DNA of 64,000 nt from positions 62,001 through 126,000 of the forward strand of contig NZ_JANAIE010000006.1 of assembly GCF_029664245.1 (NCBI RefSeq), given 5' to 3'. Position 1 is the first letter of the stretch, and the number at the start of each line of letters is the position of its first letter. Below the pieces are notes generated by a model. The model searched no databases. It was given only the letters and a program-made list of their open reading frames with translations, and was not told the DNA's origin. The position numbers were made by a program, and so were the translations under genes. Positions 1,455-6,688 of this stretch are shown one piece after another. This DNA comes from Profundicola chukchiensis (GTDB lineage: Bacteria > Bacteroidota > Bacteroidia > Flavobacteriales > Weeksellaceae).

Positions 1455-1462
1455 TATCTTTG
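1455..1462 (+). promoter_or_regulatory. Bacteroidota -7 promoter box of glgB
   Basis: The sequence TATCTTTG matches the Bacteroidota -7 consensus TAnnTTTG exactly. Transcription should start about 4 nt downstream, giving a leader of about 15 nt to the ATG at 1481. The TTG at 1460-1462 lies inside this box and therefore cannot be the translation start. No clear -33 TTG is seen at the usual distance. Confidence 0.75.
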
Positions 1463-1480
1463 GCAATTAAATCCAACCTT

Positions 1481-3448
1481 ATGCATGCCTTAACTTTAAT
1501 AGAAAAAGATCCACTTCTAAAACCATTTGAGCAACAGCTTGTTAACAGAATAGAGTGGTATCAAAACACCAAAGATTATATTGAAAAGCATTTCGGTAGC
1601 CTTGATAGGTTTGCCTCAGCGCATGAGTTTTTTGGCTTTCAATATGATGAGAAAAAGCAAGGTTGGTGGTTTAGAGATTGGTTGCCTAATGCTTCTTATG
1701 TCTCGCTGATTGGAGATTTTAATGGTTGGGATAGAGCAGCGAATCCTTTAAGAAGAGGAAATTATGGTGCTTGGGAGATTTTCTTGTCGGATGAGGAGTA
1801 CAAGGATAAATTAGTCCCTGGTTCTAAGGTGAAAATGCACGTTCATGGCGAAAATGGTCAATTAGATAGGATTCCGGCTTACATAAGACAGGTGGTTCAA
1901 AAGGAAGACCATGGATATGATGGAGTTTTTGCCGGCATTATTCAATATCAATGGAAAAATAAATTTTCAGCAAAAGATATCAAAACCCCTCTAATTTATG
2001 AGGCACACGTTGGAATGGCGACAGAGGAAGAGCGTGTTGGAAGTTATCGAGAGTTTGCGGAAAATATCTTACCTAGAATTAAAAAATTAGGTTACAACTG
2101 CGTACAATTAATGGCGATTCAAGAGCATCCGTATTATGGTTCTTTTGGATACCAAGTTTCAAATTATTTTGCGCCAAGTTCACGTTTTGGTTCACCAGAT
2201 GATTTGAGATATCTCATCGATACTGCACATGGAATGGGAATCGCAGTGATTTTAGATGTGGTGCATAGTCATGCAGTGAAAAATAGAGACGAAGGTCTTG
2301 CTGAGTTAGACGGAACGGAGCAGTATTTTGACGGTTGGCAACCCGACTGGGATTCGCGCACTTTTGATTATAAGAAAATAGAAGTAAAACGCTTTTTAGC
2401 TTCCAATCTTAAATACTGGATGGAAGAATTTAAATTCGATGGTTTTAGGTTTGATGGAGTAACGAGCATGCTTTACCAACATTTTGGTCATGTTGAATTC
2501 ACTGATTATTCTAAATATTTCACTGATACCAACAATGATGCGATTATTTATTTGCAGTTAGCTAATGAGTTGATTCACAACCTTAATCCTGATGTCATTA
2601 GCATTTGCGAAGATATGAGCGGTATGCCAGGAGCTGTGCGTCCTGTTGAGGAGGGTGGATTAGGATTTGATTATCGTTTGGCGATGGGCTTGCCTGATTT
2701 TTGGTTTACCTTATTAGAAACCAAAAAAGATGAGGATTGGCACATGGGCGATTTATACTGGCATCTGATAAATCGTAGAAAAGATGAAAAGAACATTGCC
2801 TATGCAGAGAGTCATGACCAGGCTTTGGTAGGTGATAAAACTTTGGTCTTTTGGTTAATGGATTCCGCCATGTATACAGAAATGAGCATTTTTAATGAGA
2901 GTTTGGTGGTGGACAGAGGAATTGCTCTACACAAAATGATTCGTTTTATTACGGCAGTATTAGGTGGTGAAGGCTATATGAATTTCATGGGAAATGAATT
3001 TGGACACCCAGAGTGGATTGATTTTCCGAGAGCAGAAAACGATTGGAGTTATAAATATGCACGAAGACAATGGTCTTTAGCTGATAAAGATCATTTGAAA
3101 TATCAATTTTTAGAGAAATTTGATCAAGAAATGATTTCTTTGATTAAGGAGTTTAATGTTTTAAATACTACAGAGGATTATAAACTTTATGAAGATAACG
3201 AAAGAAAGATTTTAGCTTTTAGAAAAGCGGATTTAATATTTGTCTTTAATTTTGGTCAAGAAAGTTTTACAGACTTTAGTTTTAATACGCTAGAAAAAGC
3301 GGATTATAATATCATACTATCTTCAGACGATAAAGATTTAGGAGGATTTGATAGAATAGATAAGGAAATGGTTTACTCGTCTAAAAATCATGATTTAACT
3401 TTATATTTACCTAGCAGAACGGCTTTGGTATTGAAGAAAAAAGCATAA
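1481..3448 (+). CDS. glgB: 1,4-alpha-glucan branching enzyme, eukaryote-like GH13 type
   Basis: The enzyme forms alpha-1,6 branches in glycogen. The start is placed at the ATG at 1481, giving 655 residues, because the longer reading from TTG 1460 begins inside the -7 promoter box. Counting from 1460, an N-terminal CBM48-type sandwich (about 60-160) precedes the GH13 barrel (about 175-560). The nucleophile is D332 in DGFRFDGVTSMLY, the acid/base is E384 in ICEDMSGMP, and AESHD carries the transition-state Asp. The VTSMLY and EDMSGMP signatures match plant, fungal and animal branching enzymes rather than E. coli GlgB, so this is the GH13_8-like type. No other glycogen gene is adjacent. A strong terminator follows. 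Confidence 0.93.
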   Translation: MHALTLIEKDPLLKPFEQQLVNRIEWYQNTKDYIEKHFGSLDRFASAHEFFGFQYDEKKQGWWFRDWLPNASYVSLIGDFNGWDRAANPLRRGNYGAWEIFLSDEEYKDKLVPGSKVKMHVHGENGQLDRIPAYIRQVVQKEDHGYDGVFAGIIQYQWKNKFSAKDIKTPLIYEAHVGMATEEERVGSYREFAENILPRIKKLGYNCVQLMAIQEHPYYGSFGYQVSNYFAPSSRFGSPDDLRYLIDTAHGMGIAVILDVVHSHAVKNRDEGLAELDGTEQYFDGWQPDWDSRTFDYKKIEVKRFLASNLKYWMEEFKFDGFRFDGVTSMLYQHFGHVEFTDYSKYFTDTNNDAIIYLQLANELIHNLNPDVISICEDMSGMPGAVRPVEEGGLGFDYRLAMGLPDFWFTLLETKKDEDWHMGDLYWHLINRRKDEKNIAYAESHDQALVGDKTLVFWLMDSAMYTEMSIFNESLVVDRGIALHKMIRFITAVLGGEGYMNFMGNEFGHPEWIDFPRAENDWSYKYARRQWSLADKDHLKYQFLEKFDQEMISLIKEFNVLNTTEDYKLYEDNERKILAFRKADLIFVFNFGQESFTDFSFNTLEKADYNIILSSDDKDLGGFDRIDKEMVYSSKNHDLTLYLPSRTALVLKKKA

Positions 3449-3465
3449 TTAAAGTATTGATATAA

Positions 3466-3510
3466 AAGAAAAAATCAGGTAGTATTTTGCTACCTAATTT
3501 TTTTTTTTTT
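3466..3510. terminator. Bidirectional terminator between glgB and the murU operon
   Basis: Arms at 3472-3482 and 3490-3500 pair with one mismatch around a 7-nt loop. A long T run follows on the plus strand and an A-rich flank gives T's on the minus strand, as expected between convergent genes. Confidence 0.8.
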
Positions 3511-3550: not shown

Positions 3551-4261
3551 TTATTTAAACCACTGTTCAGCTAAAGGTACACTTTCCATTTTACCTACAT
3601 CTAAAAGTTTGTAGTTTGTGTGGTCAAAACCATAGATTTCGTGACTTTTCATTAATTCCATATAAGGTTTCATGATAGAGAATTTACCCTCAAAAGTGTT
3701 TAATTCAAAAAACTTGGGGTCGATGATGTGAATTCCACTAAAAGCTAATGCTTGTTTATATTCTGGGTTTTCAATAATACTATCTCCATTTCTTAAATCT
3801 TTCCAGCCACAGAGTTTATTATTTTCATCGAATAACAACTTTCGAGTGCTTTCTCTATCACTCACTGCCAAAGAGATTAAAGCCTCGTGCTGCGAATGAA
3901 ATGTAATAAATTCATCGATCGGCATATCGGTCAGAATATCTGAATTCATTACCAAAAATGGCTTGTCGCCCAATAAATCTTTAGCCTTAACTAAACCACC
4001 ACCTGTTTCTAATAATTCCTCTCTTTCATCTGAAATTTGAATCTCAACACCAAAATTGTCATTTTGCTTTAAAAAATCTTCAATCTGATCTGCAAAATGG
4101 TGGACATTAATCACAAATTCTTGAATGCCGTAAGATTTTAAATATTCAATATTACGTTGCAACAATGGTTTTCCATTTACAGGAAATAGGGCTTTGGGCG
4201 CGTTAAAAGTAAAAGGTTGGAGCCGAGTTCCTAATCCGGCCGCGAAAATCATGGCTTTCAT
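3551..4261 (-). CDS. Sugar-1-phosphate nucleotidyltransferase, MurU-like
   Basis: This is a 236-residue nucleotidyltransferase. The nucleotide-binding loop AAGLGTRLQPFT (7-18), the PKALFPV segment (22-28), the substrate-side ETGGG (85-89) and the metal-binding NSD (106-108) are all present. Order and spacing resemble Pseudomonas MurU, which makes UDP-MurNAc from MurNAc-1-phosphate and UTP. The AmgK-like kinase two genes upstream supports that role, because AmgK supplies MurNAc-1-phosphate. It starts 1 nt after the RapZ-domain gene stops and is the last gene of the operon. A mannose-1-phosphate guanylyltransferase remains possible, since these families share the same fold and motifs. Family is certain; MurU function is inferred from context. 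Confidence 0.8.
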   Translation of the reverse strand: MKAMIFAAGLGTRLQPFTFNAPKALFPVNGKPLLQRNIEYLKSYGIQEFVINVHHFADQIEDFLKQNDNFGVEIQISDEREELLETGGGLVKAKDLLGDKPFLVMNSDILTDMPIDEFITFHSQHEALISLAVSDRESTRKLLFDENNKLCGWKDLRNGDSIIENPEYKQALAFSGIHIIDPKFFELNTFEGKFSIMKPYMELMKSHEIYGFDHTNYKLLDVGKMESVPLAEQWFK

Positions 4262-4262
4262 A

Positions 4263-4688
4263 TTAATATGGCTTATTGATCCAGTTTTTAGATTCTTGTA
4301 CTACATGTTCCACATTAACTTCAGCTTCAGGATATTTATTTTTTAAATGATTTGCCATATAATCTGCTGCATATACAGACCTATGTTGACCACCTGTGCA
4401 ACCAAAATTAACTTCTAAGTTGGTGAAGTTTCTTGCCAAATAATCCTCTACAGAAATTTCTACAATGGAAACTGCAGATTTTATGAATTCAGGCATTCTG
4501 GTCTGAGTTTCTAAATAGTCCATCACGCCTTTATCTCTTCCAGTTTGGGTTTTAAATTCCTCGATTCTTCCAGGATTTAATATTCCTCTACAATCAAAAG
4601 CAAATCCACCTCCGTTGCCAGATTTATCTTCGGGAATACCCTTTTTATAAGAGAAGCTACGAACGTTAATTTTTAATTTTTCAGACAT
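4263..4688 (-). CDS. Stand-alone RapZ C-terminal domain protein
   Basis: This 141-residue protein corresponds to the C-terminal half of RapZ. The signature FDCRGILNPG (31-40), the TGRDKGV stretch (49-55) and GCTGGQHRS (96-104) are present, while the N-terminal P-loop kinase-like half of E. coli RapZ is absent. In E. coli the C-terminal domain binds glucosamine-6-phosphate and the small RNA GlmZ, tying RapZ to cell-wall precursor supply. Here the gene sits between an AmgK-like kinase (overlapping it by one base, TAATG) and a MurU-like transferase (1-nt gap), so tight co-translation is likely. A role as amino-sugar sensor or as a regulatory subunit of the kinase is inferred. Some Bacteroidota appear to carry this domain fused to the kinase, from memory. 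Confidence 0.85.
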   Translation of the reverse strand: MSEKLKINVRSFSYKKGIPEDKSGNGGGFAFDCRGILNPGRIEEFKTQTGRDKGVMDYLETQTRMPEFIKSAVSIVEISVEDYLARNFTNLEVNFGCTGGQHRSVYAADYMANHLKNKYPEAEVNVEHVVQESKNWINKPY

Positions 4689-5683
4689 TAAATATTATTT
4701 TTAGGAATATGAGTTAAATTTAAAGAAGAGCAAATATTTTTAAGGGTTGGGAATTTATCAATAATCCCTATTTCTGCAATTTGATTTAGGTTTTGAATTC
4801 CTAGCGCCAAACTATCTCTGAAATGAGTTTTGTTTTGAATAAAACCTAGTTTGCCATAGGCTCCTACGACCTGTAACAATCTAATTAATAAACAGATGTA
4901 GTAATCTTGTTTGAAGTCGCTAGAATTAAAACGATTAGGTAATAATTTCTTTAGTTCAGAAGTATAGATACTGTATAAACTGTCCTTTTCTTCTATTGTT
5001 AAATTTGCTTTAGCCTGCCATAAAAGAGAAACCAAATCATAAGCAATGGGTCCTTCCATGCCATCTTGATAATCAATAAAGTAGGTTTTGTTGTTCTTAA
5101 TCAAGATATTTCTACCTTGAAAATCACGAAACATAAAAAATCTATAATGTGTTTGTACAACAGCTTCAGCAATTTGATCAAACTCTTGAAGTAATTCAGT
5201 TTGTGAGTAATCAAGATTTATTAAATCTAAGAAATAATCTTTAAAGTAGAATAAATCTCTTAGAACTAGAATTTTGTCAAAGGAACTAAATCCATAAACT
5301 TGATTGTAATCTATAACTTGGTGGGCACCAATTTGAAGATGAGCAAGCTTTTTGACCGCTTGTTCATAAAGAGATGAAGTGTTGGTATCATCTTTTAATT
5401 TTAACTCTAGAAGACTAATATCACCCAAATCTTCTTGAATATATAAATCTTTGTTTGAATTTATTTTAAGAACTTTCGGTACTAGTCCATTTAAATTTTG
5501 AAATAGTTCGCTTAAATAATAGAAAGATTCATTTTCAGAAATGTCCTCACTTTCGGTGAGGACATATGTTTTATCTTCAGCTTTAAATCTATAATAAGAC
5601 CTTCCCGAACCGCTTTCGGCTAGTTGGACTAAGTCAGAGTAGCCTGGGTTAAATGATAGTAGGAAGTCATCTATTATAGACAT
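4688..5683 (-). CDS. Aminoglycoside phosphotransferase-fold sugar kinase, AmgK-like
   Basis: This 331-residue kinase has a glycine/serine loop SGSGRSYYRF (24-33), a catalytic loop FRDFQGRN (R186, D187, N192) and a metal-binding IDYQDG (D204). GPIAYDLVSLLW follows directly. The last element closely resembles AmgK, the anomeric kinase that phosphorylates MurNAc and GlcNAc at C1 in the Pseudomonas recycling route. The gene starts 10 nt after the threonine dehydrogenase gene stops and overlaps the next gene by one base. With the MurU-like enzyme it would form a two-step salvage of MurNAc to UDP-MurNAc that bypasses de novo synthesis. Other small-molecule kinases of this fold cannot be excluded without biochemical data. 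Confidence 0.78.
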   Translation of the reverse strand: MSIIDDFLLSFNPGYSDLVQLAESGSGRSYYRFKAEDKTYVLTESEDISENESFYYLSELFQNLNGLVPKVLKINSNKDLYIQEDLGDISLLELKLKDDTNTSSLYEQAVKKLAHLQIGAHQVIDYNQVYGFSSFDKILVLRDLFYFKDYFLDLINLDYSQTELLQEFDQIAEAVVQTHYRFFMFRDFQGRNILIKNNKTYFIDYQDGMEGPIAYDLVSLLWQAKANLTIEEKDSLYSIYTSELKKLLPNRFNSSDFKQDYYICLLIRLLQVVGAYGKLGFIQNKTHFRDSLALGIQNLNQIAEIGIIDKFPTLKNICSSLNLTHIPKNNI

Positions 5684-5693
5684 AAACTATGAA

Positions 5694-6647
5694 TTATACG
5701 TTAATCTTAAGTTTTGACTTCAGATGTTTTAACATCTCCACGGTCATAGAATCTAAATCAAACTCAGGTTTCCAGTTCCAATCTTTTTGAGCTTGAGTGT
5801 CGTCTATGCTATTGGGCCAAGAATCGGCAATTGCTTGTCTGTAATCTGGAGCATAAGAAATCTCGAAATCTGAAATATGTTTTTTGATTTCAGCGGCAAT
5901 CTCTTCTGGGGTGAATGTAATCCCCTGTAAGTTATAAGCTGTATGAATAGTTAAGTCCTCTTTTGGAGCTTGCATTAACTCAATCGTAGCACGAATTGCA
6001 TCGTCCATATACATCATAGGAAGAGCCGTTCCTTCTCCGATAAAACTTTCGTATTTTTTGTCTTCTAAAGCTTTATAGTAAATGTCTACAGCGTAATCTG
6101 TAGTTCCACCTCCTGGTAAAGTTTTCCAGCTGATTAAACCTGGATATCTAATGCTTCTTACGTCTACACCATATTTTTGATGATATATTTCGCAGAATCC
6201 TTCTCCAGCAACTTTAGCTACACCATACATACTCAATGGATTAGTAACCTCTTCTTGCGGCGTCATATCTGCAGCGGCACCTCTACCAAATACAGCAATA
6301 CTACTAGGCCAAAATATTTTACTCAGCTTTTTGTCTTTTGCTAATTCTAGAAAAGTTAAAAGAGAGTTGGTGTTTAAGTTCCAACCTTGAATTGGATATT
6401 TCTCAGCTGTTGCAGAAAGCATGGCTGCTAAATGATAAACTTCAGTAATTTGGTTGTTGATAACGATATCCTTGATGGCTTGTTCGTCATTAACATCTAA
6501 TTTTTGATAAGGAATATCTAAATGATTCTGTTCAGGTTCTCTAATATCTGTAATTAAAACATTCTCAGAACCGTAGATCTGTGCTAATTTTTCTGCTAGC
6601 TCAGAGCCAATTTGCCCTAATGCACCAGTTACCAAAATTTTTGTCAT
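5694..6647 (-). CDS. tdh: L-threonine 3-dehydrogenase, short-chain (SDR) type
   Basis: An NAD-dependent extended SDR that oxidises L-threonine to 2-amino-3-oxobutyrate, the first step towards glycine and acetyl-CoA. The start is set at ATG 6647 (317 residues). The longer reading begins at a TTG (6683) that is part of the -7 box. From the new start the Rossmann motif GALGQIG begins at residue 8, the catalytic pair is Y141 and K145 in MYGVAK, and PGLISWKTLPGGGTTDYAV is the substrate loop typical of SDR-type threonine dehydrogenases of animals and flavobacteria. It is the first gene of the operon with amgK, rapZ-CTD and murU. The metabolic link to cell-wall salvage is not obvious and may be only co-transcription. 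Confidence 0.85.
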   Translation of the reverse strand: MTKILVTGALGQIGSELAEKLAQIYGSENVLITDIREPEQNHLDIPYQKLDVNDEQAIKDIVINNQITEVYHLAAMLSATAEKYPIQGWNLNTNSLLTFLELAKDKKLSKIFWPSSIAVFGRGAAADMTPQEEVTNPLSMYGVAKVAGEGFCEIYHQKYGVDVRSIRYPGLISWKTLPGGGTTDYAVDIYYKALEDKKYESFIGEGTALPMMYMDDAIRATIELMQAPKEDLTIHTAYNLQGITFTPEEIAAEIKKHISDFEISYAPDYRQAIADSWPNSIDDTQAQKDWNWKPEFDLDSMTVEMLKHLKSKLKINV

Positions 6648-6680: not shown

Positions 6681-6688
6681 CAAAGATA
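6681..6688 (-). promoter_or_regulatory. -7 promoter box of the tdh-amgK-rapZ-murU operon
   Basis: On the minus strand this reads TATCTTTG, an exact -7 consensus. The predicted transcript begins near 6677, leaving about 30 nt before the ATG at 6647. A TTTG on the minus strand at 6714-6717 is 25 nt away, longer than the usual 17-23 nt spacing, so the -33 element is uncertain. Confidence 0.75.

Follow-up and report, generated by a model that had tools for sequence, protein, structure and literature searches.

A stand-alone RapZ C-terminal domain beside an AmgK-like kinase in Profundicola chukchiensis, and its fusion to the kinase in other Bacteroidota

We analysed a 64,000-nt window of the Profundicola chukchiensis genome (contig NZ_JANAIE010000006.1 of assembly GCF_029664245.1, positions 62,001–126,000; all coordinates below are those of the window), in which a gene for a stand-alone RapZ C-terminal domain (RapZ-C) lies between the genes of an AmgK-like sugar kinase and a MurU-like nucleotidyltransferase. 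Four tightly packed genes occupy positions 3551–6647 of the minus strand, in the order SDR-family dehydrogenase, kinase, RapZ-C and MurU-like transferase (Table 1). A 10-nt gap separates the dehydrogenase and kinase genes, the kinase and RapZ-C genes overlap by one base (TAATG), and a 1-nt gap precedes the MurU-like gene; the initial annotation of this DNA had described the same packing, and all four genes lie where it placed them.

Table 1. Features of the operon and its downstream flank, in window coordinates.
Feature	Position	Strand	Evidence or conservation
AmgK-like APH-fold kinase, 331 aa	4688-5683	minus	PF01636 E 2.8e-10
Kinase catalytic loop RD....N	5108-5128	minus	R186, D187, N192 (also D204) invariant in 33/33 aligned kinases
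Stand-alone RapZ C-terminal domain, 141 aa	4263-4688	minus	PF22740 E 1.4e-32, residues 5-128
GNGGG, five-residue insert typical of the Bacteroidota form	4605-4619	minus	last three Gly 111/111, Asn 110/111 loci
NPGR (NPHW with His190 in E. coli RapZ)	4566-4577	minus	G 111/111, R 105/111 loci
Pocket loop C97-T-G-G-Q-H-R103-S104 (C-X5-R-S)	4377-4400	minus	C, T, G, G, H, R, S each 111/111 loci
MurU-like nucleotidyltransferase, 236 aa	3551-4261	minus	PF00483 E 9.7e-23
SDR-family dehydrogenase/epimerase ('tdh')	5694-6647	minus	PF01370 E 5e-29; same-direction neighbour, outside the conserved module
Hairpin with T-runs on both sides	3469-3503	both	terminator-like on both strands

The RapZ-C product scores 112.8 bits against PF22740 (cut-off 27), is the sole match to this family in the genome, and retrieves the E. 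coli RapZ C-terminal structure (PDB 5o5s) with a phmmer E-value of 3e-14. Its predicted fold (predicted local distance difference test score, pLDDT, 89.7) matches the RapZ C-terminal domain (CTD) with VIA Z values of 17.8–19.3 and a root-mean-square deviation of 1.5–2.0. PF03668, the N-terminal P-loop ATPase of RapZ, is absent from the 141-residue product, and the full-protein RapZ model reaches 98.5 bits against a cut-off of 244. The window domain thus falls short of a complete RapZ RNase adapter, since a search for the ATPase half found none.

The kinase has the APH fold, in which RD....N forms the catalytic loop, and it carries the invariant D187, N192 and D204, as an AmgK-type kinase would. 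Its best NCBIfam model is AmgK, at 79.5 bits, and that of the transferase is MurU, at 154.3 bits, with further matches to the structures 4y7t (E 1.2e-31) and 8hhd, the latter named MurU (E 1.6e-24). Since neither protein reaches the equivalog cut-off of its model (550 bits for AmgK and 250 bits for MurU), the substrate of the pair is a predicted one. Like the Pseudomonas AmgK–MurU system, which comprises an N-acetylmuramic acid (MurNAc)/N-acetylglucosamine 1-kinase and a MurNAc-1-phosphate uridylyltransferase, the window combines an APH-fold kinase with a small sugar-1-phosphate nucleotidyltransferase. It differs in the RapZ domain, whether fused or split, in the sub-equivalog scores, and in having no match over the cut-off for MupP, which the available text of two papers describes as the MurNAc-6-phosphate phosphatase of Pseudomonas (PMC5371407, PMC5371409).

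In a phylum sample of 395 Bacteroidota genomes, PF22740 was found in 49 (37 of 171 genera). The domain is fused to an AmgK-like kinase in 36 of these genomes (open reading frames (ORFs) of 476–524 aa) and encoded by a separate gene in the other 13 (134–169 aa). No domain-bearing ORF of normal RapZ length occurs among the 49, and none of them, P. chukchiensis included, contains PF03668, in a search that was positive in six control genomes. For gene order, 111 loci were compared: that of P. chukchiensis, 30 from the phylum sample, and 80 retained from the 359 relatives that were found in genome contigs (L017 and L038 give identical scores and may be one genome; L055 and L060 share one assembly). 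Kinase and domain share one frame at 48 loci and occupy separate frames at 62, the remaining locus being truncated by a contig end; a MurU homologue is seen at 101. At each of the 60 split loci that hold the full trio, the kinase gene precedes the domain gene on a shared strand, so their linkage is not due to chance. MurU is on the same strand at all 100 three-gene loci and, with start codons guessed by script, the gap to it lies between −4 and 175 nt at 96 and at 306–368 nt at three; at the last, L036, MurU is upstream. Natural fusions of an APH-type kinase with RapZ-C, which the initial annotation had suggested looking for, thus exist, and the AmgK/MurU-type setting and operon linkage that it described are conserved among relatives. 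The dehydrogenase, which it had counted in the same operon, has a homologue at only 5 of the 111 loci, P. chukchiensis included (31 of the 111 span only 3.4 kb), and was dropped as a member of the module.

Two fused proteins, from Parabacteroides distasonis and Bacteroides finegoldii (L146:2481-3911, L147:2484-3914), bear the RefSeq name 'RNase adapter RapZ', and Pfam finds in them APH and RapZ_C domains and no RapZ ATPase half. The predicted structure of a fused relative (pLDDT 86.2; predicted template modelling score 0.72) matches APH-fold kinases (top match 3csv, Z 28.2; N-acetylhexosamine 1-kinase, Z 19.2) and, over its C-terminal part, RapZ (Z 19.5). An AmgK-type kinase with RapZ-C, fused or split, is a real and widespread variant that is undescribed in the literature searched: no paper on RapZ and AmgK together was found in this body of work, outside which most subscription papers lie, and literature on RapZ with Bacteroidetes and with Bacteroides concerned RNA decay and E. 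coli phage resistance, respectively. The literature matches listed for phosphatase loops with RapZ included none naming RapZ.

Domain, kinase and transferase also occur together at the level of genomes. Using a kinase profile, A1 (380 bits in P. chukchiensis, whose own row is part of it), and a transferase profile, A3, both partly built from genomes later counted, we found a strong kinase match (>250 bits) in 50 of the 395 genomes, namely all 49 with the domain and one other, G009. All 49 match A3 at 200 bits or more and G009 does so at 248 bits, and none of nine genomes without kinase and domain matched it at E 1e-30. A more distant kinase (about 95–150 bits), with no domain by subtraction, is found in 84 genomes of one family (f18), one of which scores 136 bits with A3; three further genomes have weak kinase matches only. 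In four genomes (G331, G271, G306 and G180) the kinase and domain genes are unlinked and both are retained. The domain adjoins MurU in G331, and the other three hold a MurU relative elsewhere in the genome (200–232 bits). Elsewhere, the unlinked domain has as its neighbour an MFS transporter (two genomes) or a secreted endonuclease I (one genome), neither of which has a clear link to wall recycling. The MFS transporter genes, in two related genomes (L133:6773-8493, L134:6627-8441), are the next genes on the strand of the kinase-unlinked RapZ-C.

Conservation within the domain centres on an anion pocket known from E. coli. According to the available text of the structural reports, the E. coli RapZ pocket is formed by H190, T248, G249, H252 and R253, with C247 nearby (PMC9841335); it holds sulfate or malonate, the nearest fold being phosphofructokinase (PMC5737377), and glucosamine 6-phosphate (GlcN6P) binds RapZ through the CTD (PMC7073468, PMC9841335). 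Besides the loop residues of Table 1, the Asp and Arg of an FD-C-R motif and a His in the tail are present at 111 of 111 loci. When 33 Bacteroidota rows were compared with 8 full-length RapZ proteins and 5 actinomycete stand-alone domains, the loop Cys, both Gly, His and Arg were kept in all 46 rows, and Ser was replaced by Ala in one. Thus the Bacteroidota form shares with RapZ (the RNase adapter and GlcN6P sensor of E. coli, YvcJ in Bacillus) the CTD fold, the CTGGxHRS loop and the tail His, and differs from it in lacking the N-terminal ATPase, in having Gly for His190 and no basic residue at position 238, in the GNGGG insert, and in its sugar-kinase partner. The His190 equivalent is Gly in all 33 Bacteroidota rows, whereas full-length RapZ has His in 7 of 8 and Tyr in one; a basic residue at the position of E. 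coli Arg238 is found in 0 of 33 rows versus 8 of 8. GNGGG is seen in the three Bacteroidota rows displayed and is missing from the 8 full-length and 5 actinomycete rows.

The history of the free-standing gene was addressed with a domain tree rooted with RapZ as outgroup, in which the Bacteroidota rows are monophyletic (100/100) and the window gene groups with seven further split genes, all from Weeksellaceae (99/95). To explain the split label, this tree requires three changes or more, two of them forced by well-supported branches, and split genes nest inside fused ones, with moderate support at the forks (ultrafast bootstrap 87–94, SH-aLRT 83–92). Because of this nesting, fusion probably came first, and the free-standing gene of the window would be a split descendant of it. 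A tree of kinase plus domain lacks an outgroup and leaves the order undecided, its midpoint root separating the split genes of Weeksellaceae from all the rest. We therefore rejected, on the outgroup-rooted domain tree and at its moderate support, an ancestral stand-alone domain as the origin of the window gene; for this gene, the ancestral status that the initial annotation had envisaged is not supported. Stand-alone RapZ-C genes of 125–180 aa were also noted on linear plasmids of Streptomyces, Nocardiopsis and Planobispora (L149:2456-2998, L150:2501-2983, L151:2462-2866, L152:2489-2884, L154:2495-2872); they keep the pocket-loop Cys and Arg, and their neighbours are mostly hypothetical.

The survey of muramic acid metabolism covered AnmK, MurQ, MupP and NamZ. 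AnmK (PF03702) is present in 272 of the 395 genomes and shows no enrichment where the domain occurs (32 of 49, among which G216 is a weak match, versus 240 of 346 without it; Fisher p 0.62); no f18 genome is among the positives, and G009 has none. MurQ and NamZ were sought in 80 genomes of our choosing, comprising 44 of the 49 with the domain, G009, 10 of the 84 f18 genomes and 25 others. MurQ was counted at 250 bits or more (model cut-off 302) as seven more genomes scored 252–300, so that 44 of 80 pass 250 and 37 pass 302. On this count, the 44 domain genomes divide into 12 with AnmK and no MurQ, 15 with both, 4 with MurQ only and 13 with neither, versus 0, 24, 1 and 11 of the 36 genomes without the domain. 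Twelve of the 13 domain genomes with neither enzyme have a locus, and all 12 keep the pocket loop. P. chukchiensis itself has AnmK and NamZ and no MurQ (best score 31.6 bits). NamZ, present in 76 of 80 genomes, was useless as a discriminator.

With the MupP model NF009696 (cut-off 359), none of the 49 domain genomes scored over the cut-off and five matched at E 1e-20 or better; the control, Caulobacter, for which the available part of one paper lists a MupP homologue (PMC13046382), also fell below it. The best P. chukchiensis score is 94 bits, from a gene that is by name a phosphoglycolate phosphatase (266.2 bits, cut-off 225). A HAD phosphoglycolate-phosphatase model was tried as a MupP search and rejected: it matches in 49 of 49 genomes, with one match over the cut-off, which is that same P. 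chukchiensis gene.

The f18 family offers a comparison without the domain. In 3 of 3 loci inspected (L142:4591-7710, L143:4440-7605, L144:6298-9428) the order is AmgK–MurU–NamZ, so that, as in the domain-bearing operons, kinase and transferase come in that order; they differ in being adjacent with no RapZ domain between them, in the exo-muramidase NamZ that follows, and in a clade without AnmK and, in the 10 genomes tested, without MurQ. In 9 of the 10, the kinase has a NamZ gene no more than about 2 kb away. Because NamZ, which releases MurNAc, adjoins the pair, the f18 kinase–transferase pair is tied to muramic acid. For Tannerella forsythia, the available text of two papers describes AmgK, MurU, MurK and MurQ and no predicted AnmK (PMC7670621, PMC5790795), and that of a preprint reports that its AmgK, which may or may not carry the domain, and its MurU enable MurNAc-probe labelling in E. 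coli (PMC13041923).

Based on these findings, we propose, with a confidence just short of even, that RapZ-C is a protein-level domain that senses an amino-sugar phosphate and controls the AmgK-type kinase. It would do so as the C-terminal part of a single kinase protein in most domain-bearing Bacteroidota and, in P. chukchiensis, as a separate protein translated from a frame that shares one base with the kinase gene. The CTGGxHRS pocket would bind an amino-sugar 6-phosphate, with GlcN6P and MurNAc-6-phosphate as candidates, and the domain, by contact with the kinase, would set the amount of MurNAc that enters the AmgK–MurU route to UDP-MurNAc; neither the RapZ ATPase half nor RNA would be needed. 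Since many relatives make kinase and domain as one protein, the task of the domain is probably to read or process a sugar phosphate on behalf of the kinase, and not to act on RNA. The initial annotation had offered two ideas, direct control of the kinase or action on RNA without the ATPase half, and the fusions, the AmgK/MurU setting and the conserved linkage make the protein-level, kinase-tied role the better of them. Sensing is also supported by the known behaviour of the RapZ CTD and by the lack of a link to AnmK, and the 13 of 44 domain genomes without AnmK and MurQ suit a ligand found in all cells, for example GlcN6P.

Co-occurrence, fusion, linkage, the lack of the ATPase half and the invariant pocket are observations, and the ligand, the contact, the effect on the kinase and the dispensability of RNA are inferred. 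Several points weigh against this proposal. MurNAc 1-kinase activity is suggested by the neighbouring genes and by the use made of T. forsythia AmgK, while the pair itself scores below both equivalog cut-offs. Part of the co-occurrence arises by construction, because A1 and A3 contain proteins of some counted genomes; the kinases and MurU of G331, G271, G306 and G180 lie outside them. In G271, G306 and G180, no MurU was found within the 12–16 kb read around either gene, and the 84 f18 genomes, with their more distant kinase, as well as G009, have a kinase without the domain. As His190 is replaced by Gly at all loci, the ligand may differ from that of the E. coli pocket. Moreover, the Cys, which in RapZ is merely near the bound ion, is so strictly conserved that it resembles an active-site residue rather than part of a sensor. 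Between sensing and catalysis the evidence is divided.

A serious rival, possible although we think it on the whole doubtful, is that RapZ-C is a cysteine-dependent amino-sugar-6-phosphate phosphatase that would convert MurNAc-6-phosphate to MurNAc, replace MupP and hand MurNAc to the kinase, so that two successive steps of the Pseudomonas-type route would be united in the fusion. In the predicted model, the C-X5-R-S loop sits between a strand (residues 90–97) and a helix (103–118), and a strand–loop–helix C-X5-R is the arrangement of tyrosine-phosphatase loops; its Cys, His, Arg and Ser never vary among the 111 loci. No clear phosphatase relative emerged from fold comparison, however: beyond RapZ, the best rows were a designed ATPase (Z 7.0), phosphofructokinase (Z 6.9 and below) and, among unrelated rows of the families listed, the dual-specificity phosphatase DUSP1 (Z 5.2 and 5.0), and such low values may reflect a common arrangement only. 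The Cys is also kept in 8 of 8 full-length RapZ proteins, which are not known as phosphatases. In the available text of PMC9841335, the H190A, C247A and C247S substitutions abolish function in E. coli RapZ, the authors raise a specialised catalytic role of the SH group as a possibility, and the density in a CTD crystal with GlcN6P is described as likely a chemically transformed product. The variants tested there by pull-down, those of C247 included, all failed to bind RNA, so the loss of function need not mean lost catalysis.

The pathway survey bears on this phosphatase in both directions. It would fill a gap in the 12 of 44 domain genomes, that of P. chukchiensis included, that have AnmK without MurQ, a combination absent from the 36 without the domain, and the lack of any MupP over the cut-off fits as well. 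Against it, AnmK enrichment, tried as a test of this idea, was negative, and 13 of 44 genomes keep the domain with neither AnmK nor MurQ. A kinase without the domain is seen only where AnmK is absent, yet these cases represent two lineages only, G009 and one clade. Since HAD phosphoglycolate-phosphatase-like genes match in every domain genome and the Caulobacter control falls below the MupP cut-off, another phosphatase may perform the step. MupP itself, with which RapZ-C would share this step, is a HAD-type enzyme, grouped by NCBIfam with phosphoglycolate phosphatases; no sequence relation to it was seen, and RapZ-C has a C-X5-R loop instead of the HAD type. An extension of this idea, which we regard as rather unlikely, holds that such cysteine-dependent phosphatase activity on amino-sugar 6-phosphates is the basic function of RapZ-C, that the domain supplies the missing MurNAc-6-phosphate phosphatase of Bacteroidota, joined with AmgK into a two-step recycling enzyme, and that the RNA regulator RapZ of E. 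coli derives from such an enzyme.

Improbable, in our judgement, is a scaffold that dimerises the kinase or docks MurU with neither sensing nor catalysis: the E. coli RapZ CTD is a homodimer in solution (PMC5737377, available text) and gene order and packing are conserved, but strict conservation extends to residues of the anion pocket, and kinase and domain genes are unlinked in four genomes. Least probable is the second idea of the initial annotation, an RNA regulator without the ATPase half, which we set aside as the main reading. In its favour, the domain is a homologue of the part of E. coli RapZ that chiefly contacts RNA, keeps the pocket Thr, Gly, His and Arg needed for RNA binding, and has basic residues at the K170, R184 and R196 equivalents in 33, 33 and 31 of 33 Bacteroidota rows. 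Against it, none of the 33 rows retains His190 or a basic residue at 238, the authors of PMC7073468 state, in its available text, that the putative GlcN6P site is widely conserved and the RNA-binding determinant restricted to Enterobacteriaceae, Rfam gives no match in the window at the gathering threshold, and the domain is constantly tied to a sugar kinase. The equivalents of K194, R211, K251 and K270, basic in 8, 4, 1 and 0 of 33 rows, say little here, because they are poorly kept in full-length RapZ too (2, 2, 5 and 1 of 8), and the RNA contacts as a whole point both ways.

As for the flanks of the module, the dehydrogenase starts at an ATG at 6647, from which the mechanical ORF extends to a TTG at 6683; its best NCBIfam name is D-erythronate dehydrogenase, at 110.7 bits, below the cut-off of 325, and 'tdh' is the label of the initial annotation. 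The hairpin at 3469–3503 may serve as a terminator for both the operon and the convergent gene at 1460–3448. Three terminator-like sites were found in the region against a shuffle mean of 1.8, and a promoter scan gave 15 sites against 14.5 expected. An 11-pair hairpin within the kinase gene (5541–5565), terminator-like on the plus strand, may be due to chance or coding. The convergent gene is glycogen branching-enzyme-like, with scores well short of the GlgB equivalog cut-offs (281.8 bits against 741 and 243.9 against 464), and positions 80–1204 encode an MpaB/rubber-oxygenase catalytic domain (PF09995) with no NCBIfam match at E 0.001.

RapZ is known as an RNA adapter, and how the pocket of its sensor half reads GlcN6P is not yet understood. 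That this half occurs without the ATPase, as part of a cell-wall-sugar kinase or alongside one, makes its sugar-phosphate function measurable by a simple kinase or phosphatase assay. It also means that two database entries named 'RNase adapter RapZ', from Bacteroides and Parabacteroides, are kinases with a RapZ-C domain, and it exposes a gap in 12 of the 44 genomes tested, which have AnmK and an AmgK-like kinase with no MurQ and no MupP over the cut-off. If RapZ-C is derived from a phosphatase, this would explain why Cys247 of E. coli RapZ tolerates not even Ser.

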